Of a DNA stretch of 64,000 nucleotides, positions 309 through 58,422 are shown one piece after another (the first letter of the stretch is position 1; each line of letters starts with the position of its first letter). The stretch is taken from NCBI GenBank assembly GCA_017538105.1, contig JAFYJN010000041.1:1-64000 (forward strand), given 5' to 3'. The position numbers were made by a program, and so were the translations under genes. Below the pieces are notes generated by a model. The model was not told the DNA's origin. It saw only the letters and a list, made by a program, of their open reading frames with translations, and made no database searches. This stretch comes from Prevotella sp. (GTDB lineage: Bacteria; Bacteroidota; Bacteroidia; Bacteroidales; Bacteroidaceae).

Positions 309-369
309 CAACACTCAACATTCAACACTCAACACTCAACATTCAACATTCCTCACTCCTCACTCTCCC
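309..369. repeat. Heptamer array at the stop codon of the TPR gene
   Basis: Seven-base words CTCAACA, TTCAACA and then CTCCTCA follow one another in register. Read on the minus strand they are TGTTGAG-type words. The array begins inside the last codons of the TPR gene (stop at 362-360) and extends into the intergenic space. The same word is found at 35.7, 36.7 and 41.3 kb. Confidence 0.85.
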
Positions 370-2060
370 ACCAATTGTATAGGTGCTTCGTAGGTCTCCT
401 CTTTCAGCACGTCGAGCAGGGCTTTCTTCTCCACATCGAACGTCGCCTTGTATTCGGTCAGCAGTGCCTCATAGTCGCCGTAGCCTTTCAGTGCCTGCAG
501 GTCCTCATCGCGTTCCACCTTGAAGAAGTTGCGGAAGCCGTTCTCGAACTGCTGTCTGAGATAGTTCACTGCCATGGGCTTGTCGCCGATGAGAGCCATC
601 AGACATGCAGCGCCGAACTCACTTACATTCTCTGGGTCGTCGGCCTGTCGTTTCTCAAACAGTTCACGCGCCTTGGCGGTATTTCCCAGCAAGGCGAAGG
701 CATACTCCGCGTTCGACGAGTCTTCTTCTATCGCCTCGTCGGTGGTGCACCGCGTAAAACATTCTCGTGCCTTGTCCATCATACCGTTCTCGCGGTAAAT
801 CTTCCCTTGGAATACGGCATTGTTGGCATCGGACCTCAACTCCTCAGGCATCATTTCCATGGTGCGCAGGGCACCGGCATAGTCACCGGCATAGTATTTG
901 TACCATAACATGTCGCCTAACCATGCGTTGTAATCCTCGGAATCCTTTTCGGGCATAATTTTTTCATGCAAGGCAATGGCTTCTTGTGTCTTTCCACTTT
1001 CAAATGTATAGCCCACGTATTTGTTGTACAGACTTTTCTGCGAGTCGTCAAGACTGTCTAAGGGGGTGGCACCCAATGCCTTTCGGAAGTAATCGGCTGC
1101 CTGTTCGTAGAGCGCATATCCCGCAAATTTTTCAGCTATTTGTTCATAGAGCGGTTCGTCGCTCGTCTTCGAGGCGCGCAGCAGGTAACGCAGGCTCTCC
1201 GGCTCTTTTTCGGCATTGCCGTAGATATAGCTGATGGCGAAATTATACACCGTTGGGTCACTCACCTTGTGTGTTTCAGCCTCGATGCGTGAAACCACTT
1301 TTTCTTGCAGCTCGGTGCTGTCGCCCAACGAACAGAGGTAGCTGAAAGAGTTGCGGCTGTATTCCATGCCGAAAGCCTTCACGGCATCATCGATGCCCTT
1401 GTCGTCGTTATTCTGTGCCAGGTAAGCCTGTGAGCGGTCGATGTATACCGTCTCGTCGTTGCGGTCGAACTCCAGGGCTTGGTCGTAAAACCTGATGGCC
1501 GCCGCCGGGTCGCCCTGCGCCATCTTGTTGCGTCCCAAGAACTGATAGGCATCCACCTTTTTCACGTCATTCTTCGTCAGCGCCAGTCGTAGCTCTTTTT
1601 CCGCACCCTCATAGTCACCGCGAGAGGTGAGCACCTGTGCGAGCATCATCGAGGGAGCCGCGATGGAGGGGTTCGTGCGCTGTGCCGCACGTATGTCGGC
1701 CACTAAACCGTCGAAGTCTTCCCGTATGCGCCACTTGGCGGAAGCACGCCAGAAATAGGCATATCCTAAGTTTTCCTTGTCTTTCTTGGGCAATAGGCGC
1801 ACGGCTTGGTCGAGATACGTGATGGCCGTGTCGGCTTCCAGACTGGCGTATAGTCCTCCCCTATACAGCCATGCGTAACCGTTTTTGGGGTGTTTGCGTA
1901 CCTCCTCACTCAGCAGCGAGTCGGCGGTGAAGAAGTCTCCCTCTTCTAGGGCCTCCTTGGCTTTCGTGTAGTCGGGAGATGTCGGTTCCTTTACGTCTTG
2001 TGCGTGGGTGTTGACGATGGTGACAATAGCCAGTAAGAACGTGAAAAGCAGTTTTTTCAT
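360..2060 (-). CDS. Secreted tetratricopeptide-repeat protein
   Basis: 566 residues. An N-terminal signal peptide (residues 1-20, ending in Thr-His-Ala-Gln) is followed by TPR-like helical repeats over most of the length, for example a stretch around residues 55-100 with the pattern of alternating Ala/Gly/Tyr positions (YAWLYRGGLYASLEADTAI) and another around 175-215 (AQGDPAAAIRFYDQALEF). TPR proteins are protein-binding scaffolds; partner and role cannot be read from the sequence. It is preceded by its own promoter at 2102-2134. Its last codons run into a heptamer array, so the C-terminal residues may not be ancestral. Likely periplasmic. Confidence 0.85.
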   Translation of the reverse strand: MKKLLFTFLLAIVTIVNTHAQDVKEPTSPDYTKAKEALEEGDFFTADSLLSEEVRKHPKNGYAWLYRGGLYASLEADTAITYLDQAVRLLPKKDKENLGYAYFWRASAKWRIREDFDGLVADIRAAQRTNPSIAAPSMMLAQVLTSRGDYEGAEKELRLALTKNDVKKVDAYQFLGRNKMAQGDPAAAIRFYDQALEFDRNDETVYIDRSQAYLAQNNDDKGIDDAVKAFGMEYSRNSFSYLCSLGDSTELQEKVVSRIEAETHKVSDPTVYNFAISYIYGNAEKEPESLRYLLRASKTSDEPLYEQIAEKFAGYALYEQAADYFRKALGATPLDSLDDSQKSLYNKYVGYTFESGKTQEAIALHEKIMPEKDSEDYNAWLGDMLWYKYYAGDYAGALRTMEMMPEELRSDANNAVFQGKIYRENGMMDKARECFTRCTTDEAIEEDSSNAEYAFALLGNTAKARELFEKRQADDPENVSEFGAACLMALIGDKPMAVNYLRQQFENGFRNFFKVERDEDLQALKGYGDYEALLTEYKATFDVEKKALLDVLKEETYEAPIQLVGE

Positions 2061-2101
2061 TGTTGAGCAAGTTTAGTTATTCCTTTTTTCTTCTCTTTCT
2101 G

Positions 2102-2134
2102 CAAAAGTACGTTTTTCTTGTTATAGCAAAGAAA
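2102..2134 (-). promoter_or_regulatory. Promoter for the TPR gene
   Basis: The minus strand carries TACTTTTG (2109-2102), a full match to the TAnnTTTG -7 element. The -33 box is weaker: TTTG at 2130-2127 is only 17 nt away, and TTTC at 2134-2131 has 21 nt spacing. Predicted start near 2095, about 35 nt before the ATG. Confidence 0.6.
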
Positions 2135-2158
2135 AAAATGCAAAAAAGTTTTCAAATA

Positions 2159-2190
2159 TTTGCATGATTGTTGAAATCGCATTACCTTTG
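2159..2190 (+). promoter_or_regulatory. Upstream tmRNA promoter (P1)
   Basis: TTTG (2159-2162), 20 nt, TACCTTTG (2183-2190): a full match to the Bacteroidetes consensus. Transcription would start about 105 nt before mature tmRNA, so a 5' leader would need processing. A 12-base direct repeat (TGAAATCGCATT at 2172-2183 and 2204-2215) brackets the start region. Confidence 0.6.
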
Positions 2191-2239
2191 CGGTCCAAAA
2201 TGCTGAAATCGCATTCCGCCGACAGTGGTTGGCATGGTA

Positions 2240-2272
2240 TTTGCGGTGGAAGTTTTTGCTATCATACCTCTG
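2240..2272 (+). promoter_or_regulatory. Proximal tmRNA promoter (P2)
   Basis: TTTG (2240-2243), 21 nt, TACCTCTG (2265-2272), one mismatch to the -7 consensus. It would start transcription near 2279, about 24 nt before the mature 5' end of tmRNA. Confidence 0.55.
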
Positions 2273-2302
2273 CCACTTCATGTGCAGAAAAACTCAAAAA
2301 AA

Positions 2303-2701: not shown

Positions 2702-2715
2702 TTGATATTGAAAGC

Positions 2716-2743: not shown

Positions 2744-2770
2744 TGTGTATGTTAGGCAATCTCGTTGGTG

Positions 2771-3649: not shown

Positions 3650-3662
3650 CTTTTAGAATTAA

Positions 3663-6730: not shown

Positions 6731-7591
6731 TTATTTCTCCTTCATATGCATCAACCACCCTATTGGCTTGACCACATTCCAATACCAGCTCAATTTTGGC
6801 TTTTCAGTTCCTTTCTTCGCACATAGTCGGAAACGCCAGTAGTTGATGGCCGCCTTTATCTTTTCCTTCACTGGAATAGGGTAGGTGGTCAGTTCCTGGT
6901 AACATAGCATTGAAGCCACCGGACTCTCCATGCGTATGCGCACGATGCGCGAGGTGAGACCATCGGGTTGGTATTCGGCAATGTATATGGGACGATTGAT
7001 AAAATGGAGTTGGTATTTTGCTGCGATACGGTTCCATGTCAATGCTTCAGGCGAAAACCGTTCTCCATCAATCTCTGGCATAGGTATTTCTTTAAGTACT
7101 CGAGTGAGGAACACCTCTTTCAAGTCGCCCGTGACATGATGCTTGAATCTTATGTCCAAAGAACTGCAGTCAATGGTATCTTTGGGCAGTCCCGACCCGA
7201 TGATTTTTCCGTCTTTTTCACAGTCCAGACCGCAGACACCACCGATGAGTGGATTGTCGCGTACTCCCTCATAAGCTTCAGCTACTACTTGCAAAGCATC
7301 ATCTGTCAGTTGGTCGTCGCTGTCTGCGATGAAAAACAATTCTCCGCACGCTTCTTTTACACCTCGATTTACAGCACGATGTTTCCCCCCGTTGGGCGTC
7401 TTAATATAGCGGATGGGATAATCATGTTTTCCGGCCATGATGCCCTTCATCACCTCTTCGGTGTCGTCCGTGCTGCCATCGTCCACCACAATCCATTCAA
7501 AATCTTTGAATGTCTGACGGCAGATACTCTCAAAGAGTGTGGGCAGCAGATGTCCCCGGTTATATGTCGGTGTGAAGACTGTAATCAACAT
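6731..7591 (-). CDS. Glycosyltransferase family 2
   Basis: 286 residues. GT-A fold signature at the N-terminus (TVFTPTYNRGHLLPTLFESI), donor-binding WIVVDDGSTDDTEE, and the metal-binding DXD-like pair in FFIADSDDQL near residue 92. An inverting enzyme of polysaccharide assembly. The C-terminal half is typical of capsule-cluster GT2 proteins. Its ATG directly follows an octamer array at 7592-7628. Confidence 0.85.
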   Translation of the reverse strand: MLITVFTPTYNRGHLLPTLFESICRQTFKDFEWIVVDDGSTDDTEEVMKGIMAGKHDYPIRYIKTPNGGKHRAVNRGVKEACGELFFIADSDDQLTDDALQVVAEAYEGVRDNPLIGGVCGLDCEKDGKIIGSGLPKDTIDCSSLDIRFKHHVTGDLKEVFLTRVLKEIPMPEIDGERFSPEALTWNRIAAKYQLHFINRPIYIAEYQPDGLTSRIVRIRMESPVASMLCYQELTTYPIPVKEKIKAAINYWRFRLCAKKGTEKPKLSWYWNVVKPIGWLMHMKEK

Positions 7592-7628
7592 GGTTAAAAG
7601 GTAAAAAGGTAAAAGAGTAAAAAGGTAA
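7592..7628. repeat. Octamer array GGTAAAAA
   Basis: Four to five copies of an eight-base word (GGTTAAAA, GGTAAAAA, GGTAAAAG, AGTAAAAA, GGTAACC) fill most of the space between the acetyltransferase stop and the start of the GT2 gene. On the minus strand this is a T-rich leader just before the GT2 start codon. Confidence 0.75.
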
Positions 7629-7654
7629 CCTTTGGGAGGGTAGAGGTGGGTCTC

Positions 7655-8239: not shown

Positions 8240-8258
8240 TGTGTATTTTATTTTCAGA

Positions 8259-8340
8259 CAACAATGAACAACTTATAACAACACTAATAGTTGTTGTATT
8301 TTAATTGTTATTGTTGTGTCTTGTTGTATTGGTTGTTTTT
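8259..8340. repeat. Inverted decamer arrays after the broken GxxExxY gene
   Basis: The left arm consists of ten-base words ACAACAATGA, ACAACTTATA, ACAACACTAA. The right arm has TTGTTGTATT, TTAATTGTTA, TTGTTGTGTC, TTGTTGTATT, GGTTGTTTTT. The arms are complementary in kind, so the RNA could fold back. The right arm ends 1 nt from the stop codon of the GxxExxY pseudogene. Confidence 0.75.
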
Positions 8341-8341
8341 A

Positions 8342-8773
8342 CTACATAGTTTGTAAGATGCGGCCATCCATACCAATGATATTGTTTTCATCTATGTCAA
8401 ACAGATATCGTTCAATAATGGCGTATTTAGGGAAAAAGTTTACCAAGATTCCGCATGTTTTTTTTCAACAGCCGCATGTAGTTGAATAGTTGCGCACGAT
8501 GATTAGCAATCAGCTCAGAAACAGATTTACATTCAACAATAATATTGTCTTTGCACAAGAAATCTAGACGGTATTCTGCTGACATGAGTTTACCACGATA
8601 AGATGGGTGGAATGATAATTCTCGTTTGTATGGATACCTTGTTCTTCCAATTCCATCTGAAACCCTTCTTGATAACAGTATTCGTTCAGTCCTGGCCCTA
8701 GTTCTTTATGTACAGAATGAATAGCCCCTACCACATCAAACATATGGCTTCTCATTTTCTGTATATCAAGCAT
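8342..8773 (-). pseudogene. GxxExxY protein, broken by two frameshifts
   Basis: The N-terminal frame (from 8773) reads the family hallmark GPGLNEYCYQEGF, i.e. G-x-x-E-x-x-Y, then runs out of frame after ELEEQGI. The next frame continues the family sequence with YRGKLMSAEYRLDFLC and the nuclease-like core NIIVECKSVSEL (D..ExK). A second shift falls at a run of eight T (8458-8465), after which CGILVNFFPKYAIIERYLF resumes in a third frame down to TAG at 8344-8342. Together the pieces make one ordinary PF13366-type protein. Either a true pseudogene or a phase-switched/sequencing-error case at the homopolymer. Confidence 0.85.
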
Positions 8774-14191: not shown

Positions 14192-14210
14192 TGTTTGTTC
14201 ACAAAATATG

Positions 14211-14453
14211 TCACACTGAAATCTCAGAAATACACAGAAATATTGTAGGATGTTTTTCTGTGGCTTTCCGTGCTATCTGTGAGTTTTTTTTCTCACACAG
14301 AAATCTCAGAAATACACAGAAATTTGGTGGTTGTTTTTTCTGTGGTTTTCCGTGCTATCTGTGAGCTTGTTTGATTTTATGTCACACTGAAATCTCTGAA
14401 ATACACAGAAATATAGTGGATGTTTTTCTGTGGCTTTCTGTGTTATCTGTGAG
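14211..14453. repeat. Three hairpin units built of CTGTG/CACAG decamers
   Basis: Units at 14211-14283, 14292-14365 and 14382-14453. Each has a left arm of ten-base words (CACACTGAAA, TCTCAGAAAT, ACACAGAAAT) and a right arm (TTTTTCTGTG, GCTTTCCGTG, CTATCTGTGA) of opposite sense, so each can fold. The last unit ends 1 nt before the stop codon of the GxxExxY gene. No open frame or promoter is seen in this 263-nt gap. Confidence 0.88.
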
Positions 14454-14454
14454 A

Positions 14455-14829
14455 CTAATTGACGACTCGGAAAATGGCATCGTGGAGAATATCATCCACA
14501 TTGAAATTTACGAGAATACCTAATCTTTTGTCTGAAAGTTTAAGATATGTAAGCAGTTGTTTGAAAAAGACATTTTGCAATTCACTGACAGACTTCAATT
14601 CAACAATCACCTTGCTTTCTACCAATAAATCCAAACGAAGATGCGTATTAAGCAAATGCCCATCATAAAAGATTGGAATCTCTTTTTGCCTTTCTACCTT
14701 TAAACCCCTCTTCACCAACTCTAATACCAATGCCTCTTCATATACACATTCAAGTAGGCCGGGCCCCATCTTTGTATATACATCATAGATAGCACCCCTT
14801 ATCTGGTATGAGATCTCATTCTCCGTCAT
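14455..14829 (-). CDS. GxxExxY protein, PD-(D/E)XK nuclease-like
   Basis: 124 residues, full length for the family. The signature GPGLLECVYEEAL (Gly-x-x-Glu-x-x-Tyr) is at about residues 23-35 and the nuclease-like core LRLDLLVESKVIVELKSV at about 63-80 supplies the Asp and the Glu-x-Lys expected of the PD-(D/E)XK fold. C-terminal GILVNFNVDDI is also conserved. Biological role unknown. It interrupts the heptose cassette between the HddC-GmhB fusion and gmhA, 13 nt from gmhA. Its stop codon touches a decamer hairpin array, as does that of the broken paralogue at 8342-8773. Confidence 0.88.
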   Translation of the reverse strand: MTENEISYQIRGAIYDVYTKMGPGLLECVYEEALVLELVKRGLKVERQKEIPIFYDGHLLNTHLRLDLLVESKVIVELKSVSELQNVFFKQLLTYLKLSDKRLGILVNFNVDDILHDAIFRVVN

Positions 14830-14842
14830 TTATATCCGGAAA

Positions 14843-36677: not shown

Positions 36678-36680
36678 GAA

Positions 36681-36835
36681 TGTTGAGTGTTGAGTGTTGA
36701 ATGTTGAGTGGTCGCTGCGCGATGAAGAATGGTGAATTATGAATTATGGATGTTGAGTGTTGAATGTTGAGTGATGAGTGACGAGTGATGAGTGACGAGT
36801 GATGAATGTTGAGTGTTTAGTGTTGAGTGTGGAGT
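36681..36835. repeat. Long heptamer array between the cyclodeaminase-like and NTase-aminotransferase genes
   Basis: Runs of TGTTGAG/TGTTGAA (36681-36712) and TGTTGAG, TGATGAG, TGACGAG, TGTTTAG, TGTGGAG (36750-36835) flank a spacer GGTCGCTGCGCGAT plus AATTATGAATTATG. The array holds the stop codon of the upstream gene (36817-36819) and ends directly before the TTG start of the downstream one. Nearly the same spacer occurs at 41291. Confidence 0.88.
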
Positions 36836-38631
36836 GCTGCAATGAGGCGTGCGTTGTCGGCGTGGTTGCGCACGGCGATGCGCATGTATTGGCGGCCATC
36901 AAGACCAACTTTGCCAGAGCAGTCGCGCATGAGGATGTTGTGGCGCTTGAGCATGGTGATGACCAGTTGGGCGGCGTTCTTCGGCGGCAATACCTCGCAG
37001 AGGAAATAGTTGGCTTGTGAGGGCATGACGCGGAGGAACGGAATCTGGCGCAGTTGGCGTTCGAAGTCGTCGCGTTCGTCAATGAACCGTTGGCAAGCGC
37101 GATGGTATTCCTTCTCGTATTTGCTGAAAATCTGCATGAAATATTCAGCGAAGGAGTTGATGTTCCAGATGCTCACTTTCTTCTTCATGCGGCTGATGAG
37201 GTCGGTGTCGGCGCTGCAGAGAATGCCCAGGCGTATGCCCGGCACACCGTAGCTCTTCGAGATGCTTTTCATGACCACCATAGTGGGGTAGGTCTCGAGG
37301 ATATCGTCGCGGATGAGCGAGTTGTTCTCGTAGCCTACGGTGAAGTCGACGAAACTCTCGTCCACCACCAAGCGTATGCCTTGTTCGTGGCACCATTTAG
37401 CCAATGTCATTACATCGGAGGTGGGGATGAAGTTGCCCGATGGGTTGTCGGGGTTGATGAGCACCAGATTGTCTGCGTGGTGCTCGCTGAAATAATCCAT
37501 TAGGTCCTGTGCGCTATAGCGGTAGTCGTCGTTCTGCGGTATGAACGTCACCAGGTTGCCTTTCTCTCGTCGGTTGGGATATTCCTCGAAAGTGGGTCGC
37601 ACCACGCCCAGTGTTCCCGGGAGCATCTCCATGAGCGCCTTGATGAGTTCGGCGGCGCCATTACCCGGAATGATGTATTCCTCTTTCACTCCCCAGCATT
37701 TGCTGGCCAGGAGTGTGTTCACCTTCATGCCCGACGGGTATTCGGCAATGAGTGTGCGGAAATAGGCCTCCAGCTCGTCGATGATGCGCGACTCGTTGAA
37801 GTAGGGGTTCACCAGATAGCAGTAGTCGAGCATCTTGGGGAACCGCCAGAAACCGCCATAACGACCGTAATACTTTGGCAGCACGTCCTTCTCGTCGGCG
37901 AAGAGCGCCTCGGCGATGTCGAGGTCTTGTTTGTCGTCGATTTCATACCATTTCGCCTCGCCAACGGGCAGTGCCTTCAGGTCGTGGCTGTTGAGGAACG
38001 AGATGATGCGCAGCACGTTCTCGTAGTATTCGTTGCTGCCCACGGCCTTGGTGTAGGCATCGAGGAAGGGCAGGTATTTGTTGCGTGAGAAATCGCGTGA
38101 GAACTTGTAGATGTTGAGCGTCTTGTAGTAGCGGGGTGCGTCGTCGTAACGGAAGTCGGCCTTCGGGATGAAGTTGACGATATTGTGGTCGCTGTCGATG
38201 CGCACCATGGTTCCGTCCATCCAACTCTCGTATTTAGCCACTAATGCCAGATTCGGCCTAGAGTCGTCGATAAGGGACTGAAGGATGGACTTCTCAACAA
38301 TGAGGTCCGACTCGAGCAGCAGCGTGTCGTCCTGTGCCATCTGTTCGCGTGCCAGCCACAAGGAGTAGATGTTGTTCGTGCGGTCGTAGATGGGGTTGTT
38401 GACGTATTCTATCTGCAACCGGTCGTCGTAACGCTGGCCGATGTATTCGATGAGGTTCTGCGCCTGGTAGCCCACCACGATGACCACACGTTGGATGCCC
38501 AACTCAGCGAGCAGTGACAGGGTGCGGTCGATGAGGCGCACACCATTCACCGGCAACATGCATTTGGTGTTGTCGCGGGTGTATTCGCCGAGGCGTTTGC
38601 CCATGCCGGCTGCGAGGATGATGGCTTGCAT
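36817..38631 (-). CDS. Fused nucleotidyltransferase and PLP-dependent aminotransferase (PntC/LicC-like fusion)
   Basis: 604 residues. Residues 1-235: MobA/LicC-type nucleotidyltransferase with IILAAGMGKRLGEYTRDNTK and LLESDLIVEKSIL. Residues 245-604: fold-type I aminotransferase of the HisC/CobD group with GNGAAELIKALMEMLPG, LVLINPDNPSGNFIPTSDVM, RLVVDESFVDFTVGY and the PLP-lysine segment MKSISKSYGVPGIRLG. The same domain order is known in fused phosphonate cytidylyltransferase-transaminases (PntC of Treponema), but no PepM is in the window. It may make a CDP-activated amino compound for the two LicD proteins. The C-terminal LHTQH comes from a heptamer array. Confidence 0.82.
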   Translation of the reverse strand: MQAIILAAGMGKRLGEYTRDNTKCMLPVNGVRLIDRTLSLLAELGIQRVVIVVGYQAQNLIEYIGQRYDDRLQIEYVNNPIYDRTNNIYSLWLAREQMAQDDTLLLESDLIVEKSILQSLIDDSRPNLALVAKYESWMDGTMVRIDSDHNIVNFIPKADFRYDDAPRYYKTLNIYKFSRDFSRNKYLPFLDAYTKAVGSNEYYENVLRIISFLNSHDLKALPVGEAKWYEIDDKQDLDIAEALFADEKDVLPKYYGRYGGFWRFPKMLDYCYLVNPYFNESRIIDELEAYFRTLIAEYPSGMKVNTLLASKCWGVKEEYIIPGNGAAELIKALMEMLPGTLGVVRPTFEEYPNRREKGNLVTFIPQNDDYRYSAQDLMDYFSEHHADNLVLINPDNPSGNFIPTSDVMTLAKWCHEQGIRLVVDESFVDFTVGYENNSLIRDDILETYPTMVVMKSISKSYGVPGIRLGILCSADTDLISRMKKKVSIWNINSFAEYFMQIFSKYEKEYHRACQRFIDERDDFERQLRQIPFLRVMPSQANYFLCEVLPPKNAAQLVITMLKRHNILMRDCSGKVGLDGRQYMRIAVRNHADNARLIAALHTQH

Positions 38632-39058: not shown

Positions 39059-39206
39059 ACAAAATCGACACATAGACTTGGAAAATGACAGATGAACATA
39101 AGGATTTTTGACATAGGAACAAATGAACATATATTTTTGACACATGAACATAGGGACATGTTTTTTCGACATATGAACATAGGGACATAAATGTTGACAC
39201 ATAAAC
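39059..39206. repeat. Left arm of a GAACATA/GGACATA array
   Basis: About five irregular units of 23-29 nt, each containing GACA and GAACATA, often followed by GGGACAT and a T-run. The words are the reverse complement of those in the right arm at 39220-39352. No gene is seen; short open frames on the minus strand are repeat-encoded. Confidence 0.75.
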
Positions 39207-39219
39207 GTTGACTGGATAA

Positions 39220-39352
39220 TTATGTCCTTTTGTTCTTATGTCTAATTCAATTTGTTCTTATGTCTAATTCAATTTGTTCTTTTGTCTAAACCGATTTGTT
39301 CTTTTGTCTAAACCGATTTGTTCTTGTGTCCATACTATTTGTTCTTATGTCC
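39220..39352. repeat. Right arm: tandem 22-nt repeats
   Basis: Four full 22-nt units at 39236-39257, 39258-39279, 39280-39301 and 39302-39323: the first two are identical to each other and so are the last two. A 21-nt unit (39324-39344) and partial units at both ends complete the block. Each unit starts TTATGTC or TTTTGTC and ends TTTGTTC. The block stops 56 nt before the promoter of the purH-mre operon. Confidence 0.88.
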
Positions 39353-39493: not shown

Positions 39494-40090
39494 ATGGCTG
39501 ACATAAAATCTATCAAGAGGGCGCTCGTTTCGGTGTTTCACAAGGACGGACTGGACGACTTGCTCTGCAAACTCAACGAAGAAGGTGTTAAATTTCTCTC
39601 CACGGGAGGAACGCAGAAATTCATTGAGTCGCTGGGCTACGAGTGCCAGACGGTGGAGAGCGTTACCACCTATCCTTCAATACTTGGCGGCAGGGTGAAG
39701 ACGCTGCATCCGAAAGTATTCGGCGGTATCCTTGGCCGTCGCGAAGAAGAAGGCGACCGCGAGCAGATGGCGCAGTACGACATTCCCGAGATAGACCTGG
39801 TGATAGTGGACCTATATCCTTTCGAAGACACTGTGAAGAGCGGTGCCTCCGACGCCGACATCATTGAGAAGATTGACATCGGTGGCATCTCGCTTATCCG
39901 TGCCGGAGCGAAGAATTTCCGCGACGTGGTGATTGTGCCGAGCAAGGCCGAATATGGCGTGTTGCTCGACATCCTGAACAAAAAGGGTGCGCAGACCGAC
40001 ATCGACGACCGCAAGATGTTTGCCGAAAGGGCTTTTGCCGTCAGTTCACACTACGACACCGCCATTCATGAGTGGTTCGCGGAAAATTGA
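39494..40090 (+). CDS. purH: Stand-alone IMP cyclohydrolase domain of PurH
   Basis: 198 residues. MGS-like domain of PurH: ALVSVFHKDGLDDLLCKL, EEGVKFLSTGGTQKFIESLG, the RVKTLHPKVFGGILGRR loop and IDIGGISLIRAGAKNFRDV. Closes the ring of FAICAR to give IMP, the last step of purine synthesis. Usual PurH is bifunctional with about 510-530 residues; here the protein ends right after the cyclohydrolase domain and no AICAR-formyltransferase remnant follows. The formyltransferase must be encoded elsewhere, or this copy is cut down. First gene of the operon. Confidence 0.88.
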   Translation: MADIKSIKRALVSVFHKDGLDDLLCKLNEEGVKFLSTGGTQKFIESLGYECQTVESVTTYPSILGGRVKTLHPKVFGGILGRREEEGDREQMAQYDIPEIDLVIVDLYPFEDTVKSGASDADIIEKIDIGGISLIRAGAKNFRDVVIVPSKAEYGVLLDILNKKGAQTDIDDRKMFAERAFAVSSHYDTAIHEWFAEN

Positions 40091-41255: not shown

Positions 41256-41256
41256 T

Positions 41257-41450
41257 TCGAGTGACGGGTGACGAATGACGAGTGACGAATGGTCGCTTCG
41301 CGATTACGAATTACGAATGACGAATTCTTCATTCCACATTCTTCATCGCGAAGCGACCATTTCACATTCCACACTCAACACTTCACACTCAACACTTCAC
41401 ACTCAACACTTCACACTCAACACTCAACATTCAACACTCAACATTATTAA
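41257..41450. repeat. Heptamer arrays converging on a 17-bp inverted repeat, mreB-mreC gap
   Basis: The left arm has TGACGAG/TGACGAA words (41261-41290); the right arm has CACTCAA/CACTTCA words (41362-41450). Between them lies a perfect inverted repeat, AATGGTCGCTTCGCGAT (41288-41304) and its complement (41345-41361). The block starts 2 nt after the mreB stop and ends 3 nt before the mreC start, so the whole gap is repeat. Confidence 0.9.
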
Positions 41451-41453
41451 ACC

Positions 41454-42835: not shown

Positions 42836-44682
42836 TGAAAGACTATGAACTGGAGAAACGGCGCTATGTGATTGGCGGGGTGGCCATCATCATCGTCGTG
42901 GTGTTCATCATTCGTCTGTTCACGTTGCAGATTATGAGCGATGACTACAAACGCAACGCCGACAGCAACGCTTTCCTGAAAAAGGTGGAGTTCCCCTCAA
43001 GGGGCAATATCTCTGACCGCAACGGTAAGTTGCTCGTTTACAACCAGCCGTCGTACGACATCATGGTGGTGGTGAACGAGGCCCGTAGCCGCATCGACAC
43101 CACGGAGTTGTGCAACACTCTGAATATCACCAAGGATTATTTCATCAGGCGTATGCGCGACATTCAGGACCGTTCGAAAAACCCTGGATACTCGCGTTTC
43201 ACGCAGCAGCTATTCATGACCCAGCTCAGCGACCAGGAGTTCAGCGTGTTTCAGGAAAAAGCTTACCGTTTCCCCGGTTTCTATATCCAGAAACGCTCCA
43301 TCCGACAATATGAATACCCCAATGCCGCGCTGTTATTGGGCGACGTGGCCGAGGCATCGCCTGAGGACATCAAGCGCGACGGCTATTACCAGCCCGGCGA
43401 TTATATCGGCAAGCAAGGCATAGAGCGGAGTTACGAAGAAGAGTTGCGCGGCACGAAGGGGGTGCAGGTGCTCTTACGCGATGCCCACGGCCGCATTCAG
43501 GGCAATTACCAGAATGGCGAGTTCGACACCCAGCCCATTCCCGGCAAGGATCTCACGCTGAGCATCGACATTGAACTTCAGCGTCTGGGCGAGCGCCTCA
43601 TGGAGGGCAAACTGGGCAGCATCGTTGCCATAGAACCGAAAACCGGCGAGGTGCTTTGTCTCGTTAGTTCGCCTTCTTACGACCCGCGTCTGATGATTGG
43701 CCGCCAACGTGGCAAGCATCATGCCGAGTTGGCGCGCGACCCCCTGAAGCCCCTGCTTAACCGTGCCATCATGGGTATGTATCCGCCAGGATCCACCTTC
43801 AAGACCTCGCAGGCCCTCACTTTTCTTTCCGAGGGCATCATCGACCAGGACACAAAATACCCCTGTCACCGCGGTTTCGTCTTCTCTGGCATGAGGGTGG
43901 GGTGCCACGGTCACGGTTCGCCGCTAAACCTTGTGCCCGCCATCGGCACATCGTGCAACGGCTATTTCTGCTGGGGACTGTACCACATGCTCACCAACAA
44001 GAAATACGGTTCGCTTCATAATGCCGTGAACACCTGGCGCGACTATATGGTGAGCATGGGTTTCGGTTACAAACTCGGCATTGACCTGCCCGGCGAAAAA
44101 CGTGGCATGATACCCAACGGCGATTTCTACGACAATGCGTTCAAGAACGGGTGGAGCGCGTTGGGTGTCATCAGTATCGCCATCGGACAGGGAGAGGTGA
44201 CCCTCACCCCGCTGCAGATAGCGAACCTCGGAGCCACCATCGCCAACCGTGGCTTTTTCTATACCCCCCATGTGGTGAAGTCGGTGGGTGGAGAACCGCT
44301 CGACGCCACATTCACCACACCGCGCTATACCAAAGTGCCGCCCGAGGCTTATAAATTGGTGGTCGAGGGTATGCGCAGGGCCGTCACTGGAGGAACTTGC
44401 CGGCGCGCCAACCGTAGTGACTATGCGGTATGCGGCAAGACAGGAACCGCGCAGAACCGCGGTCGTGACCATAGCGCCTTCATGGGCTTTGCACCCATGG
44501 AAGACCCCCAGATAGCCGTGGCCGTGTATGTGGAGAACGGTGGTTTTGGTGCCGTCTATGGTGTGCCCATCGGCGCGTTGATGATGGAACAGTTTATCAA
44601 AGGAAAGTTGTCGGCCAGCAGCGAGGCACAGGCGTCGGCGATACAGAAGAGACATATCTCCTATGGCAAAACGGACAGATAA
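42835..44682 (+). CDS. mrdA: Penicillin-binding protein 2 (elongation transpeptidase)
   Basis: 615 residues from ATG 42835, preceded by GGAAGGAG, one of the clearest ribosome-binding sites here. One membrane helix (IGGVAIIIVVVFIIRLFTL), then the dimerisation domain (RGNISDRNGKLLVYNQPSYD) and transpeptidase domain with the nucleophile motif YPPGSTFKTSQAL, the SxN motif IGTSCNGYF and KTGTAQNRG. Cross-links peptidoglycan during elongation; target of beta-lactams. A longer open frame beginning at 42676 is not used because it overlaps mreD by 160 nt. Confidence 0.95.
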   Translation: MKDYELEKRRYVIGGVAIIIVVVFIIRLFTLQIMSDDYKRNADSNAFLKKVEFPSRGNISDRNGKLLVYNQPSYDIMVVVNEARSRIDTTELCNTLNITKDYFIRRMRDIQDRSKNPGYSRFTQQLFMTQLSDQEFSVFQEKAYRFPGFYIQKRSIRQYEYPNAALLLGDVAEASPEDIKRDGYYQPGDYIGKQGIERSYEEELRGTKGVQVLLRDAHGRIQGNYQNGEFDTQPIPGKDLTLSIDIELQRLGERLMEGKLGSIVAIEPKTGEVLCLVSSPSYDPRLMIGRQRGKHHAELARDPLKPLLNRAIMGMYPPGSTFKTSQALTFLSEGIIDQDTKYPCHRGFVFSGMRVGCHGHGSPLNLVPAIGTSCNGYFCWGLYHMLTNKKYGSLHNAVNTWRDYMVSMGFGYKLGIDLPGEKRGMIPNGDFYDNAFKNGWSALGVISIAIGQGEVTLTPLQIANLGATIANRGFFYTPHVVKSVGGEPLDATFTTPRYTKVPPEAYKLVVEGMRRAVTGGTCRRANRSDYAVCGKTGTAQNRGRDHSAFMGFAPMEDPQIAVAVYVENGGFGAVYGVPIGALMMEQFIKGKLSASSEAQASAIQKRHISYGKTDR

Positions 44683-46132
44683 GCAACCCAGCGTGTTAGG
44701 TTCACTCGACTGGTGGACCATCGCCATCTACGTGGCGCTCCTCTCCTTCGGGTGGGTGAGTGTCTGCGGAGCCAGCTACACCTATGGCGACACCGACATC
44801 TTCAGCCTGAGCACACGTTCGGGCATGCAGATTGTGTGGATAGGCACGTCGATACTGCTTGGTCTGGTCATACTCTTGCTTGACGACCGTTATTACGACA
44901 CTTTCGCCTATGTCATCTACGGACTGATGATGTTCCTGCTCTTCGCCACCATCTTCAATCCCCATGAGATCAAAGGCTCAAGGTCGTGGCTGGTCATGGG
45001 TCCCGTGCGATTGCAACCCGCTGAGTTCGCCAAATTCGCCACGGCATTGGCCGTGAGCAAATATATGAGCTCCTATGGTTTCAGCATGCAGCGCATGAAA
45101 CAATTCTTCGCTGCCTGTGGACTCGTCTTCCTGCCCATGCTGCTCATAGTGGGCCAGAAAGAAACAGGCTCGGCATTGGTTTACATGTCGTTCTTCCTCA
45201 TGTTCTACCGTGAGGGAATGCCTGGCAGCATCCTCTTCACCGGAGTGGCTATGGTGGTGTATTTCGTGATGGGCATTCGCTACGAGCAGGTGATGCTGCT
45301 GGGTACGCCCACCTCGGTGGGAAAATTCGTGGTGTTGCTGTTGGTGCAACTCTTCTCTGCCGGCATGGTGTATGTGTATTGCGACGACAAGCGCAAGAGC
45401 CTGAGCATGTTGGGGTATATGCTGTTCGTCACTGTAGGATTCCTGTTGTTCTCGCTTTATGTCATACCTTTCGACATCGTGTGGGTGCAGCTGGTGGTGT
45501 GTGCCGCCCTCATTGGCTATCTGCTGTACCAGTGGATGAGCACGCGAAAGACCAATTTCCTGCTTGTGGCCTTGTTCGCCGTAGGGTCGATAGTGTTTTT
45601 CTATAGTGCCAGCTACGTACTCAACTCGGTGATGGAGCCCCACCAGCGTACGCGTATCAACGTGTTGCTGGGGTTGGACGACGACCTGAGCGGTGCCGGT
45701 TACAATGTCCATCAGAGTGAGATTGCCATTGGTTCGGGCGGTTTGGAGGGAAAAGGTTTTCTCAATGGCACGCAGACGAAGTTGAAGTTTGTGCCCGAGC
45801 AAGACACCGACTTCATCTTCTGCACCGTGGGTGAGGAGGAAGGTTTTTTGGGCAGTGCCGGTGTGTTGTTGCTGTTTCTAGCCCTCATCTTGCGACTCAT
45901 CCATTTGGCTGAGCGTCAGCCGTTTAAATTTGGGCGGGTATATGGCTATAGTGTGGTGAGCATCTTCCTTTTCCATGTGTTTATCAATGTGGGAATGGTG
46001 CTCGGACTGACGCCCGTCATTGGCATCCCGTTGCCTTTCTTCAGTTATGGTGGCTCGTCATTGTGGGGTTTCACCATCTTGTTGTTTATCTTCCTCCGCA
46101 TCGATGCCGGGAGGAATATAATAAGAACTTAG
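44663..46132 (+). CDS. rodA: SEDS glycosyltransferase RodA
   Basis: 489 residues, about ten helices. SEDS features: LDWWTIAIYVALLSFGWVSV at the N-terminus, GSRSWLVMGPVRLQPAEFAK, VGQKETGSALVYMSFF (the catalytic region around the conserved Asp/Glu) and the C-terminal GLTPVIGIPLPFFSYGGSS. Polymerises glycan strands with PBP2. Overlaps mrdA by 20 nt. It is longer than most RodA proteins (370-430), the extra length lying in the mid region around residues 225-300. The stop codon TAG lies in the first word of a decamer array. Confidence 0.94.
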   Translation: MAKRTDKQPSVLGSLDWWTIAIYVALLSFGWVSVCGASYTYGDTDIFSLSTRSGMQIVWIGTSILLGLVILLLDDRYYDTFAYVIYGLMMFLLFATIFNPHEIKGSRSWLVMGPVRLQPAEFAKFATALAVSKYMSSYGFSMQRMKQFFAACGLVFLPMLLIVGQKETGSALVYMSFFLMFYREGMPGSILFTGVAMVVYFVMGIRYEQVMLLGTPTSVGKFVVLLLVQLFSAGMVYVYCDDKRKSLSMLGYMLFVTVGFLLFSLYVIPFDIVWVQLVVCAALIGYLLYQWMSTRKTNFLLVALFAVGSIVFFYSASYVLNSVMEPHQRTRINVLLGLDDDLSGAGYNVHQSEIAIGSGGLEGKGFLNGTQTKLKFVPEQDTDFIFCTVGEEEGFLGSAGVLLLFLALILRLIHLAERQPFKFGRVYGYSVVSIFLFHVFINVGMVLGLTPVIGIPLPFFSYGGSSLWGFTILLFIFLRIDAGRNIIRT

Positions 46133-46185
46133 GGGAACTTAGGAAAACCTAGGACAGCCTAGGACAACCTATTAAAAACCTATGG
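46126..46185. repeat. Decamer array between convergent rodA and gldH
   Basis: Six ten-base words in register: AACTTAGGGG, AACTTAGGAA, AACCTAGGAC, AGCCTAGGAC, AACCTATTAA, AAACCTATGG. The first word contains the rodA stop codon. CCTAGG is self-complementary, so the RNA can fold on either strand. No other terminator is seen between the two genes. Confidence 0.85.
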
Positions 46186-46198: not shown

Positions 46199-46705
46199 CT
46201 ATTCTCTTTTAAGAAGATGTATCCCCACTTCCGTCACGCCAGGTAGTGAGCGGCGTAGCATGTTGTGATGGATGCGTATGGCGAGTGAGTCGCCTTCGTT
46301 GATGTGCAGAAAACGGAAGGGCAGTTCTTGCTGATAAATTGACAAGCCCCGACCTATTGGCTTGCCTTGTTGGTCGTAGATGGGTAGGTTTAGCGTGTCG
46401 GTGAGGAGTTTGCCCGAAGGGAATAACTGCTGTTCGATCACCAAGGAGAGGCGCAAGAAGGGATAGCTGCCTTCGGTGCGCAAACCGAGTTCTTCCACAT
46501 AGGGACCGCCCTCGTCGAGAGGTGACACGTAGAATGTGAGCACGCTGTCTTTCTCCCATCCTCTCACGTCGGTGTGTCGATAGTCCACATATCGGGTGTT
46601 GGGAAAGCAGGATGTCAACAAACCCATCGCCAACACTCCGGTGGCTAATGCCGCCAGTACTCGTCGTCGTGTTGTCTGGATGCTTGCGAGCATTTTTCCC
46701 GTCAT
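46199..46705 (-). CDS. gldH: Gliding-motility-type lipoprotein GldH
   Basis: 168 residues from ATG 46705, supported by AAGGAGAAAG just upstream. A longer frame reaches 46936 but overlaps ricT. Signal peptide TRRRVLAALATGVLAMGLLT with lipobox TSC (Cys33), then YVDYRHTDVRGWEKDSVLTF and ITYQQELPF-like sequence (LSIYQQELPFRFLHINEGDS) typical of GldH. GldH is an outer/inner membrane-linked lipoprotein widespread in Bacteroidetes, also in non-gliding ones. Follows ricT after 37 nt. Confidence 0.87.
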   Translation of the reverse strand: MTGKMLASIQTTRRRVLAALATGVLAMGLLTSCFPNTRYVDYRHTDVRGWEKDSVLTFYVSPLDEGGPYVEELGLRTEGSYPFLRLSLVIEQQLFPSGKLLTDTLNLPIYDQQGKPIGRGLSIYQQELPFRFLHINEGDSLAIRIHHNMLRRSLPGVTEVGIHLLKRE

Positions 46706-46742
46706 TCTTTCTCCTTGGCCTTTTGGGTGCTCCTTCTTTCTA

Positions 46743-47981
46743 CTAGGCCTTGTGGTGTCGCGATTCCCGTTGCTGCGCGGGTCTGTCGTCCTGCCTACCT
46801 CTTGGTCCTTGGTCCTTGCCTTTCGTCCCTTGTCCTCTGTTTCTTGGTCCTTGGTCCTTGCCTTTCGCTCCTTGTCCTTTGTCCTTCCCCCCTTTTTTCT
46901 TGCGCTTGTTTTTGTCGAAACGCGTGATGCTCTCATTCTCCAAGAGGTCGAGAGGTCGCTCTTCCTGTTGCACTTGGTCGTCGTCGAGCAGCGACAGCGG
47001 TTTCTCTCCCCTTTTGTTCATCTCGATGATGTCGTTAGCCCTTGCAGAGCTGATGGTGCACAGGTTGGCAGCCATGCGTTTGTCGGTGGAATAGGTGACC
47101 AGTCCGGCCAATATGTCGCTTTTGAACAAGTAGTAATCGTTGTCGGCCGTTTGGAGTACCACCTCGCGCGCGGGCATTAGTTTTCCCGCTTCCATATAGT
47201 TGTCCACCTCGTAGTTGAGGCAGCATTTCAGTTTGGCGCACATGCCCGCCAGTTTCTGCGGGTTGAGTGATATGTCCTGGAAGCGTGCCGCGGCGGTGCT
47301 TACCGACACGAAGTTCTTCATCCATGTGGCGCAACACAGTTCACGTCCGCAGGGGCCGGTGCCACCGATGCGCCCTGCTTCCTGTCGTGCTCCAATCTGT
47401 TTCATCTCGATGCGTACATGGAAAGTTTCCGCCAACACTTTGATGAGTTGTCGGAAGTCGACACGTTCGTCGGCGATATAGTAGAAGATGGCTTTGTTGC
47501 CGTCGCCTTGGTATTCCACGTCGCCGATTTTCATCTGCAGACCCAGGTCCTTGGCGATTTGGCGGCTCTGTATCATCGTGCCGTGTTCGCGGCTTTTCGC
47601 CTCATGGTATTTGTCCATGTCGACGGGTTTGGCTATGCGGTAGATGCGTCGAATATCCTCTTCCGACTTCAGGTTGGCTTTTTTCACCTGCAATCGCACC
47701 AGTTGTCCGGTAAGCGTCACCACTCCGATGTCGTGTCCCGGATTTGCCTCCACTGCCACAATGTCGCCTTTTTTCAGGTCAAGGTGGTTCACGTTGTGGT
47801 AATAGCCTTTTCGGGTGTTCTTGAACTGCACCTCCACCAGGTCGGTGCTGGTGTCGTTGCCGGGGATGTCGGCCAGATAGTCGTAGGTGTTCAACTGCTT
47901 GTCTTGTCGACCGCATCCGCGTCGGCAAAGTCCTCGGTCGCAGCCGCTCACCATTTTGAAGGTCATATTTTTGTAGTCCAT
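46743..47981 (-). CDS. ricT: RicT/PSP1-domain protein with a repeat-derived tail
   Basis: 412 residues. The PSP1 domain is evident from ADIPGNDTSTDLVEVQFKNT through TGQLVRLQVKKANLKSEEDI and the cysteine motifs CDRGLCRRGC, CGRELCCATWMKNF and GMCAKLKCCLNYEVDNY, which in RicT help bind iron-sulfur clusters. RicT-type proteins act in RNA processing (Y-complex) in Bacillus; the role in Bacteroidales is not settled. The last 60 residues (KKKGGKDKGQGAKGKDQGPR and on) are translated from heptamer repeats and are low-complexity basic sequence. Confidence 0.87.
   Translation of the reverse strand: MDYKNMTFKMVSGCDRGLCRRGCGRQDKQLNTYDYLADIPGNDTSTDLVEVQFKNTRKGYYHNVNHLDLKKGDIVAVEANPGHDIGVVTLTGQLVRLQVKKANLKSEEDIRRIYRIAKPVDMDKYHEAKSREHGTMIQSRQIAKDLGLQMKIGDVEYQGDGNKAIFYYIADERVDFRQLIKVLAETFHVRIEMKQIGARQEAGRIGGTGPCGRELCCATWMKNFVSVSTAAARFQDISLNPQKLAGMCAKLKCCLNYEVDNYMEAGKLMPAREVVLQTADNDYYLFKSDILAGLVTYSTDKRMAANLCTISSARANDIIEMNKRGEKPLSLLDDDQVQQEERPLDLLENESITRFDKNKRKKKGGKDKGQGAKGKDQGPRNRGQGTKGKDQGPRGRQDDRPAQQRESRHHKA
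46795..46893. repeat. Heptamer array CTTGGTC inside the 3' end of ricT
   Basis: CTTGGTC, CTTGGTC, CTTGCCT, TTCGTCC, CTTGTCC occur, then the same series again (46849-46890), each seven bases long. The array is open in frame and encodes the GKDQGPR-type tail. Word differs from the TGTTGAG arrays but the period is the same. Confidence 0.8.
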
Positions 47982-49156: not shown

Positions 49157-49238
49157 GGAGGAGTTTAGGAGTATAGGAGTATAGACAATGGCCTGTGTGT
49201 GGTAATCTCTTGCTCCTTACTCCTTGCCCCTTGCTCCT
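49157..49238. repeat. GGAGTATA / CTTGCTC inverted arrays before holB and after metF
   Basis: Left arm GGAGTTTA, GGAGTATA, GGAGTATA (49160-49183, period 8). Right arm CTTGCTC, CTTACTC, CTTGCCC, CTTGCTC (49209-49236, period 7). The arms are of opposite sense (GGAG against CTCC). The right arm ends 4 nt from the metF stop at 49243. Confidence 0.78.
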
Positions 49239-55173: not shown

Positions 55174-55185
55174 AGTGTTTCCTTT

Positions 55186-56586: not shown

Positions 56587-56604
56587 ATCGTGGTTCCTCC
56601 TTTG

Positions 56605-58335
56605 TTATTTGATGTAGATGAATTTCGACTGCGGCTCGATGGATGCGCGCTGCGAGTCGTCGGAACTGGGCGAATAGGTGCGCGAGGGTTCCATACCGGC
56701 GGCGATGGCGTCCTGTGGTACTTCCACGGCGCGGCGCTCGTCGTTCCAAGTGAGTCTGTACTCAACATTGTTGGCACCCACGAAATGTGAGTATTCCATA
56801 CCCCAGCGTTTCAGGTCGAAGAAGCGGAGACCGTCCCAGTTGGTTTCAAAGCGTCGGAAATCGTTCAGGCAGTTCATGTAAGGAACTCCTTCTGCGGGAA
56901 GCACGGCAGCGGGACTCATGTTGGTTAGGAAATCCCAGTTGTCCAAGCAGTTGGGGTTGCTGCTGTTGGCGTAGTAACTGTTGATGATGTCCTGTGACAA
57001 GTCGGCCATACCGCCATTGGCACCCCATGAGATGAGGTTGGTAGGCGAGAACGACTGGTTCGACTTCTCATAGTTAATCAGGTCTTCGAGTGCGCTGGCA
57101 TAGTTGCCCAGCATGATGTATGCCTCGGCGCGTTCGAGCAGCAGTTCGTTACAGGTAAACTCACGCTTGATGGTGTGAACATAGCCGATGCCCGCAATCT
57201 TGTCGGTGTATTCAAACTCTTCGTACACCTTGCCAGAGCAATAACCATAGTCTTCGCCTGTCCAGAATGTCATTCCCGACACGTATGCGGTGGGGTTGAC
57301 CACCCAACGGCTCCACATGGGGCTGTTGTGGTAGAACAAATCTTTCACCACCTCGCCGTTCTGTGCGTAGCGGTTACCCAGTCCGCGACGGAACATGAGT
57401 GAGTGGGTGTCGATGAGCATCAGGTTATTGGGCGATGCGGGATCCTGCCACACTTTGGCGTAGTCGCTGCCATAAGTACATTCATCGAACTTAGAGAAGT
57501 CCATCAGTTTGGAGATAATGTTCTCGTTATCGGTACCCAGCACGTAGTTGGCATGTTCGATTACCTTGTTCCAATCGCGTTTGTATAGGTAGAAACGTGC
57601 GGCGAAGGCGTGTGCGGCGTTGAGGTTGAAACGCCACTTCGGCAACTTGTAGTTACGTTCGCTCAGATTGGCGAGTCCCTCTTCCAAGTCGGCCTGAATC
57701 TTGGCGTAAGTGTCGGTCACCGTGCCACGGCTGTATTCTACAATTACCTTCTCCTCAGGTTCGGTCATGTAGGGTATGCCCTTGTCGGCACGACTCAGTT
57801 CGTCGGTCTTATAGGCCTGCGAGAACACGTTCACCAAGATGAAGTGGCAATAGGCGCGGATAAGGAGTGCTTCGGCGCGTGATGCGGTGAGCGATGGCGT
57901 CATATTCTGCCCGTGATCGGAAATCTCGTCAATGGCTTGCAGCGCGTGGTTCACGCTGGCGATGGCACCATAGAACGTTTCCCAAAGGAAGCCCGGGGTG
58001 TCCTGCGAGGTGGACGACTTGGCGGGGTCGAAACGGAACATCTCATCGTCAACACGGTCGTAAGACGACAGGTTGTAGTGGGTTAACACCTGTTCGGCGT
58101 TGGGACTGGCAGGTAGGTGCGGCGCATTGTTGTCCATGATGTTATCGCTGGAAATCTCGCAAACCCAGGCATAGCTGCCACTGGGATAGCAAGAGATAAG
58201 CAACTGTGCCACTTTTTCTTCATTGTCGATTTCGATACGCTCGTCGGGCAACTTGTCGAGGAAACTGTCGCTGCACGAAGTGAGCGTGAGTGCCGCCAAG
58301 GCCATCAACATTATGATATATCTTGTTGTCTTCAT
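56605..58335 (-). CDS. SusD/RagB-family substrate-binding lipoprotein
   Basis: 576 residues. Lipobox LTLTSCSDSFLD (Cys21). SusD features: the TPR-rich helical body (ALLIRAYCHFILVNVFSQAY around residue 165), NAAHAFAARFYLYKRDWNKV and the C-terminal FFDLKRWGMEY typical of the family. SusD caps the SusC channel on the cell surface and captures the substrate. Spacing to SusC is 87 nt, filled by a heptamer array. The partner metallohydrolase gene suggests a peptide-like substrate rather than a plain glycan. Confidence 0.93.
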   Translation of the reverse strand: MKTTRYIIMLMALAALTLTSCSDSFLDKLPDERIEIDNEEKVAQLLISCYPSGSYAWVCEISSDNIMDNNAPHLPASPNAEQVLTHYNLSSYDRVDDEMFRFDPAKSSTSQDTPGFLWETFYGAIASVNHALQAIDEISDHGQNMTPSLTASRAEALLIRAYCHFILVNVFSQAYKTDELSRADKGIPYMTEPEEKVIVEYSRGTVTDTYAKIQADLEEGLANLSERNYKLPKWRFNLNAAHAFAARFYLYKRDWNKVIEHANYVLGTDNENIISKLMDFSKFDECTYGSDYAKVWQDPASPNNLMLIDTHSLMFRRGLGNRYAQNGEVVKDLFYHNSPMWSRWVVNPTAYVSGMTFWTGEDYGYCSGKVYEEFEYTDKIAGIGYVHTIKREFTCNELLLERAEAYIMLGNYASALEDLINYEKSNQSFSPTNLISWGANGGMADLSQDIINSYYANSSNPNCLDNWDFLTNMSPAAVLPAEGVPYMNCLNDFRRFETNWDGLRFFDLKRWGMEYSHFVGANNVEYRLTWNDERRAVEVPQDAIAAGMEPSRTYSPSSDDSQRASIEPQSKFIYIK

Positions 58336-58357
58336 ATCTTTGAGTTTTTTATTGTAA

Positions 58358-58422
58358 AAGTGAAGAGTGAAGAGTGAAAAATAAATTTGAACACTAAACT
58401 CTAAACCTTCAACACTAAACCA
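58358..58422. repeat. Heptamer arrays between SusC and SusD
   Basis: Left TGAAGAG, TGAAGAG, TGAAAAA (58361-58381); right CACTAAA, CTCTAAA, CCTTCAA, CACTAAA (58392-58419). Arms are of opposite sense. The right arm touches the stop codon of SusC (58423-58425). Confidence 0.78.

Follow-up and report, generated by a model that had tools for sequence, protein, structure and literature searches.

We analysed a 64,000-nucleotide stretch of the genome of a Prevotella sp. (contig JAFYJN010000041.1, positions 1 to 64,000; the whole stretch is called the window below) in which short words are repeated in strict register at gene borders. We consider it probable that these word arrays are the arms of small palindromic intergenic insertion elements that are related to the intervening sequences (IVS) of rRNA genes and mostly lack an open reading frame (ORF). 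An earlier, sequence-only reading of this DNA had listed ten such arrays; Tandem Repeats Finder and direct reading found words in register at nine of the places, while at the tenth, 8259-8340, a loose ACAACA/TTGTTG palindrome is present in which Tandem Repeats Finder gives no array. The arrays, and the genes that belong with them, lie along the window as follows.

309..365, - strand: TGTTGAG/TGAGGAG array, period 7, overlapping the stop of a TPR gene (360-2060, -)
7592..7628, + strand: AAAAAGGT array, period 8, beginning at the start codon of the - strand ORF 6731-7591, with a GC-rich dispersed repeat after it
8240..8345, no strand: irregular ACAACA / TTGTTG arm adjoining a degenerate GxxExxY gene
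8457..8737, - strand: degenerate GxxExxY (PF13366) gene, matched by the profile in two pieces (51.8 and 32.1 bits)
14207..14453, no strand: three tandem hairpins of about 82 nt, each with opposing 10-nt words ACACAGAAAT / TTTCTGTGG
14455..14829, - strand: intact GxxExxY (PDDEXK_3, PF13366) gene, 124 aa, 134.8 bits
35700..35729, + strand: GTTGAGT array within the 3' part of an ornithine cyclodeaminase-like gene (-)
36678..36836, + strand: TGTTGAG/TGACGAG array with a TCGCTGCGCGA core that begins at the start of ORF 35649-36677 (-) and runs into the end of 36817-38631 (-)
41258..41291, + strand: left arm of TGACGAG words, 2 nt past the mreB stop
41292..41357, no strand: centre with GGTCGCTTCGCGAT and an inverted copy of it
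41358..41443, - strand: right arm of TGTTGAG words (CTCAACA on the + strand), 10 nt before the mreC start
46125..46171, no strand: AACCTAGGAC array, period 10, where the stops of 44663-46132 (+) and 46199-46936 (-) face each other
46801..46886, - strand: CTTGGTC array, period 7, inside coding sequence and absent from the sequence-only reading
49159..49184, + strand: left arm AGGAGTAT, period 8, present in the related genomes G019 and G207 too
49209..49238, - strand: right arm AAGGAGC (CTTGCTC on the + strand), period 7, 4 nt from the stop of metF (MTHFR)
58359..58378, + strand: left arm AGTGAAG, period 7
58390..58420, - strand: right arm of AACACTA words, 2 nt from the stop of a SusC-like gene (TonB plug domain)

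The arrays are genuine and occur throughout the genome. In a sample of 859,331 bp, or 24% of the 3.61-Mb genome, 196 arrays passed the threshold: 84 had a period of 7, 64 of 8, 11 of 9, 18 of 10, 16 of 11-13 and three of 6, and there was none of period 5. Genes in this sample were called with a codon-score caller that places starts approximately. A log-odds period scan of contig C59 (202,710 bp) and of positions 1-260,000 of contig C5 gave 26 + 26 segments at period 7, 17 + 17 at period 8, 4 + 5 at period 9 and 3 + 6 at period 10, with none at periods 4-6, and three Markov shuffles of the same DNA gave a mean of 0.0 segments at periods 7-10. The same period peaks were found in samples of G019 and of a second genome of the genus, G028. 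The periodicity in our genome is far beyond that of shuffled DNA. Coding sequence also gains word arrays, as at 46801-46886 of the window and at 217557-217787 and 165388-165424 of C5.

Nearly all the arrays had been described as touching or containing a stop codon. Attachment to gene borders is evident, since 68 of 134 arrays in gaps with at least 20 nt of slack lie no more than 15 nt from a border, against 40.0 expected; restriction to stop codons is not, for the 88 near-border arrays (those with an orientation and no more than 20 nt from a border) divide into 52 at stops and 36 at starts. When each array is read on its G-rich strand a strong polarity emerges. That strand points away from the gene, towards the gap, in 77 of the 88 near-border arrays, with 11 in reverse, and in 78 of 93 arrays from four other genomes (G019 32:10, G028 13:3, G207 10:1, G167 23:1). 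In a separate count of 179 arrays, 19 of which were inside genes and 70 far from borders, the G-rich strand was the + strand in 41 of 44 arrays no more than 20 nt from the left border of a gap and the - strand in 38 of 46 equally close to the right. The polarity is seen with all four gene orientations, and a count of start codons by themselves gives 34 to 2; it belongs to the gap and not to the direction of transcription. Where a gap has several arrays (29 gaps), the G-rich strands are ordered + then - in 25, ++ in two, -- in one and mixed in one, and the order is kept even where the two arms carry different words, as they often do. The rule of two opposing arms is therefore stricter than had been supposed. 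A pair of arrays of longer units (29 nt and 22 nt) at 39088-39351, upstream of ORF 39494-40090, has the same two-armed layout at a longer period, with the opposing words GACATAxGAACA / TGTTCTTATGTC.

Two other sources of this polarity were considered and rejected. A general base skew at gene ends cannot be the cause: arrays next to a border have a GC skew of +0.30 after stops and -0.60 before starts, whereas array-free gap DNA is weakly skewed, from -0.16 to +0.02 after stops, where the first 20 nt are opposite in sign to the arrays, and from -0.15 to -0.02 before starts, where the sign is that of the arrays and the skew is weaker. Nor can open-frame ascertainment, in which arrays with a C-rich sense strand would lengthen the called genes, account for the start borders.

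Such a disposition bears on the suggestion that the arrays work as RNA, whether as bidirectional terminators, as 3' stem-loops that protect mRNA or as RNase III sites, and are maintained by selection at the level of the transcript. Both strands do present a G-rich 5' arm and a C-rich 3' arm, and the folding of some gaps far exceeds that of shuffled sequence: for 41256-41453 the fold z score is -4.6 on the + strand and -3.6 on the - strand. The earlier expectation that opposing arms fold is borne out there and not at several other window arrays, which do no better than shuffles (z of 0.1 on the + strand for both 7592-7654 and 36678-36836). Arm complementarity, when measured, scarcely separated the arms of one gap from arms taken from different gaps (9% against 5% at a score of at least 15). 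Arrays are too frequent at starts for elements confined to gene 3' ends, some lie between genes of the same strand, and mismatches between arms are not of the kind that pairing in mRNA would leave, as described below. A role in termination or mRNA protection is not supported, the terminator or 3' stem-loop is rejected as the main role on the grounds of start-border arrays, polarity, same-gap pairing and mismatch type, and we regard RNA elements of any of these kinds as a quite improbable explanation.

The gap between mreB and mreC, which holds the window array 41258-41443, was compared across species. Its median length is 14 nt in 80 related loci, most of them titled Prevotella or Prevotellaceae, and a clear array (score of at least 13, in gaps of at least 35 nt) is found in 12 of the 80. 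This comparison of orthologous gene ends, which had been put forward as a check, yields a different word in nearly every case, among them GTTTACG, GGTAGAA, TAGATAA, AAAAGTAA, AGTTAACGA and GGTTTCA. G019 carries the words of the window there, while G167, at 85% identity, carries GTTAAGA arms. In another genome a match to the 23S_rRNA_IVP family discussed below adjoins mreB on the side opposite the mreB-mreC gap (G065:C63:1466-1762). The gap is also informative about the idea that arrays are sites for translational or post-transcriptional regulators, as has been proposed for TAACTGA repeats, with ladders of words serving S1, Csp or Csr proteins. The arms just upstream of starts are C-rich and G-poor (C 0.26, G 0.07), which speaks for it, but most orthologues of the mreB-mreC gap have no array and arrays are no rarer at stops than at starts, so that this is, in our estimation, the remotest of the explanations.

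The word was said to change from locus to locus. Many words do exist, and one single dispersed repeat is rejected as an explanation by the variety in the census, but the change is not free, because the words form a lexicon that recurs: AGTGTTG/AATGTTG, AGAGGTG, AAGGGGC, AAAAAGGT, AAAAGATT, AGGAGTTT, AGTTTGGG, AAAGGAAGAT and others. The sequence TGTTGAGTGTTGAG occurs 26 times in the genome, against none for its reversed control, and is present in 7 of the 60 genomes searched (this one included), all of the genus. Recurrence across loci and genomes means that words do not arise anew locus by locus; the lineage has a set of them. With the genome's own ORF-bearing elements excluded and arrays inside genes included, 178 array words were compared, up to rotation and strand, with the words in the arms of elements that enclose a 23S_rRNA_IVP-type gene (bIVP, PF05635). 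Words identical to those of bIVP arms in other genomes of the genus numbered 66 (shuffled words 6.0, maximum 11), rising to 142 with one mismatch allowed (59.0 when shuffled); none of the 178 matched bIVP arm words from other parts of the phylum. The arms of GxxExxY genes supplied one exact match, and 17 with one mismatch against 5.5 when shuffled. The word comparison connects ordinary arrays with bIVP-type elements and shows the words to be lineage-specific. It had been argued that a local, self-copying process operates in place of the spread of one element. There is indeed no one element of fixed sequence, but a purely local process is unsupported because the same words stand at many loci and in the arms of ORF-bearing elements of other genomes.

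Those ORF-bearing elements are of two types. The genome has three PF13366 (GxxExxY) loci and four matches to PF05635, three of them over the curated cut-off, and most are flanked by opposing word arms. PF05635 is found in 52 of 60 genomes of the genus, this one included, and among 61 genomes across the phylum (also including this one) bIVP is present in 45 and GxxExxY in 29. To quantify the arms we took an inverted-repeat score across the ORF, with a cut-off of at least 14; the controls were flanks combined from different loci and, for the genus, 700 ordinary genes from stretches of its genomes, with mismatched flanks as the phylum control. Loci with short flanks or no ORF were dropped (4 of 32, 0 of 20 and 1 of 29 for the three bIVP sets; 4 of 31 and 1 of 29 for the two GxxExxY sets), and our broken GxxExxY loci L219 and L220 and weak bIVP locus L224 were left out. 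Within the genus the cut-off was reached by 93% of 28 bIVP loci (one for each genome, the best), by 80% of a second set of 20 bIVP loci and by 89% of 27 GxxExxY loci, and across the phylum by 75% of 28 bIVP and 68% of 28 GxxExxY loci. Mismatched flanks reached it in 16, 16, 13, 8 and 10% of cases in the five sets, and ordinary genes in 5%. Scores of at least 25 were obtained by 46, 55, 63, 14 and 21% of the sets against 0-3% of mismatched flanks. Period follows the ORF: arrays beside bIVP have mainly periods of 7 (46 of 130) and 8 (44 of 130; three sets pooled), those beside GxxExxY mainly 9 (27 of 56) and 10 (13 of 56). On this evidence from sequence, bIVP and GxxExxY ORFs would explain the two-armed layout. 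Four GxxExxY loci elsewhere in the phylum (L372, L374, L378, L379) have arms with CACGAA, CACAGA, CGCAGAG or CACATAG words, for example CGCAGAG..CTCTGCG; arm words in the style of CACGAA and CGCAGAG are common in environmental genomes.

Empty and filled versions of the same gap can be compared directly. Between sdhB and sdhA our genome has arms TTTGGTCG.. and ..CGACTAAA around a bIVP gene, where G019, with the gene 96% identical, has a gap of about 10 nt. The bIVP gene adjoins sdhB in five of 30 fetched loci (G000, G065, G034, G083, G021), and of 20 rows without the ORF 14, G019 among them, have a gap of some 5-30 nt and six have other filler, four further rows (G065, G014, G090, G084) being weakly anchored; no word array was seen by eye in the gaps of the relatives without the ORF. 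The sdhB side accounts for 13 of 32 bIVP loci and yet many relatives are empty there, which points to an old insertion that is often lost or to a favoured site. At a second gap, C28, for which 15 of 30 fetched loci were picked by alignment coverage and kinship, our genome alone has the ORF, and 11 loci have neither ORF nor array. The ORF-less C28 element of G019 has a left arm that begins with AAAATTAA, the word of the bIVP element of our own genome (G000), and holds a GGAGTTAA..TTCGC..GGACATTAC stretch that is also in an arm of another of our bIVP elements, L222. In the window, the gap at 14192-14842 with the intact GxxExxY gene and its hairpins is 1 nt long in G207 and 73 nt in G019; the gap around 8457..8737 has no GxxExxY gene in either genome, and the array at 36678..36836 is also found in G019 and, in a shorter version, in G207.

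These sites allow another order of events to be weighed, in which slippage makes the arrays as repeat DNA in its own right, recombination spreads them, and genes for bIVP and GxxExxY home into them in the manner of group I or group II introns or homing genes. ORF-less arrays far outnumber ORFs, array lengths vary between close species, and three of the 15 loci at C28 (G014, G068 and G019, by eye) have arrays and no ORF, all of which would suit homing. The lack of arrays at sdh in relatives without the ORF speaks against it, as do the word shared by the two arms and the period that tracks the type of ORF, which require arms and ORF to be linked. We judge the homing of genes into pre-existing arrays unlikely.

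In the insertion-element explanation that we favour, a full element would consist of an outer arm of a tandem word of 7-10 nt (sometimes 11-12), an inner part, a loop or small ORF, and a mirror-image arm. The ORF would be of one of two types: a four-helix-bundle protein of the 23S_rRNA_IVP type, related to the rRNA IVS proteins and to the Avd protein of diversity-generating retroelements, between arms mostly of period 7-8; or a GxxExxY protein of the PD-(D/E)XK type, between arms mostly of period 9-10. The palindromic element would enter a very short gap, of about 1-40 nt, and fill it; arms would touch gene ends because the gaps that are filled have almost no length. ORF-less copies, the majority, are taken as derivatives, much as miniature inverted-repeat transposable elements (MITEs) are of transposons, and would move in trans. 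The word is lineage-specific, alike on both arms and different between species. The ORF product would bind the iterated arms: our PF05635 protein matches the structure of Xcc0516 (PDB 2gsc, E 1.4e-25), and since the solved form of that family member is five four-helix bundles assembled together, according to a title cited in PMC10053308, a ladder of equally spaced words may be its natural partner. The arrays, their polarity, their association with the ORFs, the empty sites and the shared words are observed; movement of the elements, action of the ORF product on the arms, descent of ORF-less copies from ORF-bearing ones and copying between arms are inferred from them.

The arms seem to be kept alike at the level of DNA. 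At the sdh site an arm scores 21.7 on average with its own partner (11 loci) and 13.0 when paired with an arm from a different locus (110 pairs); the two arms therefore change in step. Pairing in sense mRNA would predict more G-U than A-C mismatches, and the reverse is found: 28 G-U against 52 A-C in 24 bIVP elements (p 0.01) and 41 against 57 in 23 GxxExxY elements (p 0.13), orthologues in both sets not being independent. We read this as copying between arms in DNA, for example by template switching in a hairpin, and not as selection for an mRNA stem.

A number of observations weigh against the elements having arisen as proposed. A single + or - array stands alone in 98 of the 128 gaps that have arrays, and the array-only alleles at C28 suggest that arrays may come first. 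With seven ORF loci in the whole genome and 196 arrays in 24% of it, descent from ORF-bearing copies is not forced. The 13 bIVP loci beside sdhB are not independent of one another; of the 17 usable loci elsewhere, which score 11-43, 15 reach 14. The intact GxxExxY gene of the window (L218) has no matching right arm (score 10), and GxxExxY arms have the G-rich polarity at just 4 of 27 loci in the genus and 1 of 28 in the phylum. No target-site duplication was obvious by eye at the sdhB-sdhA rows, where no systematic search was made. A common inner cap, attractive by eye, is weak by count: the motif is inner in 30 and outer in 16 of 247 arrays, and in 14 and 10 of 73 bIVP arms. Recurrent 10-mers number 164 inside and 98 outside, and the outer ones largely belong to another dispersed repeat. 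A second dispersed palindrome, CCCTCCC-TTTGGGAGGG..GGGGTGGG, lies at 7629-7654 of the window, in the outer flanks of several of our arrays and in other gaps of relatives. The window also has a transfer-messenger RNA gene (tmRNA; 2303-2702, + strand; Rfam RF00023, 140 bits), which alone among Rfam families exceeded the gathering score.

Several known systems resemble these elements in part. MITEs, REP (repetitive extragenic palindromic) and REPIN sequences are short, ORF-less, dispersed intergenic palindromes that are taken to depend on ORF-bearing relatives. Our arrays have words in common with bIVP elements and yet, unlike MITEs and REPs, their ends are not a fixed sequence. The cyanobacterial short tandemly repeated repetitive (STRR) heptanucleotides and the stems of tRNA-Leu introns have degenerate 7-nt words, sometimes as opposing stem arms, and neither is known to be linked to bIVP or GxxExxY. 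Arrays of the heptamer TAACTGA in Beggiatoaceae, Cyanobacteria and some Bacteroidetes are described as intergenic, tandem, close to genes and absent in close relatives, with indels mostly in steps of 7 nt, and the same text speculates that what moves could be a protein that binds the repeats (PMC4679880). Our arrays are likewise tandem heptamers between genes; where that work concentrates on one word as a possible regulator site, here there are many words, a two-armed polarity and ORF families. TAACTGA, which lies mostly forward and upstream of starts, is not among the 45 commonest array words here, and both borders are used.

The rRNA IVS are the closest counterpart. The Coxiella 23S IVS is given as 428 nt with a 28-bp terminal stem (PMC4990558), and small ORF-less IVS are recorded in five species (PMC2672173); palindromic ends around a four-helix-bundle PF05635 ORF and short ORF-less forms are common to both, with most of our arrays lacking the ORF. 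The elements described here differ in lying between protein genes, in having stems of tandem 7-12-nt words that differ by lineage, and in number, as extrapolation from 24% of one genome leads us to expect hundreds of ORF-less arrays in each. The insertions inspected by eye, our own and the orthologous ones, sit between protein genes; rRNA genes were not searched for insertions. PF05635 is reported to be homologous to Avd (PMC10053308) and to occur in rRNA insertions of Candidate Phyla Radiation bacteria (PMC11270868) and in cas loci (PMC3936711). Judged by titles, abstract openings and passages, none of the listed matches among open-licence texts joins the PF05635 or PF13366 families with intergenic word arrays.

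A more far-reaching proposal, which we put forward tentatively and hold to be possible more than probable, is that these elements form a mobile class in which repeat geometry, and not sequence, serves for recognition of the ends: a 7-10-nt word of the lineage's own would be iterated and mirrored, the two arms would evolve in concert, the period would be set by the cargo (7-8 for bIVP, 9-10 for GxxExxY), hundreds of gaps per genome would be seeded, and two orphan families would acquire a common role. The finding links unexplained intergenic heptamer arrays, the orphan families PF05635 (bIVP, kin of Avd) and PF13366 (GxxExxY) and the origin of rRNA IVS. Two questions become testable: why the arms consist of repeats whose period is specific to the protein, and by what route 100-600 nt are added to short gaps like mreB-mreC and sdhB-sdhA. 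If the reading is true, the rRNA IVS would be the visible tip of a large family of intergenic elements in the Bacteroidota.

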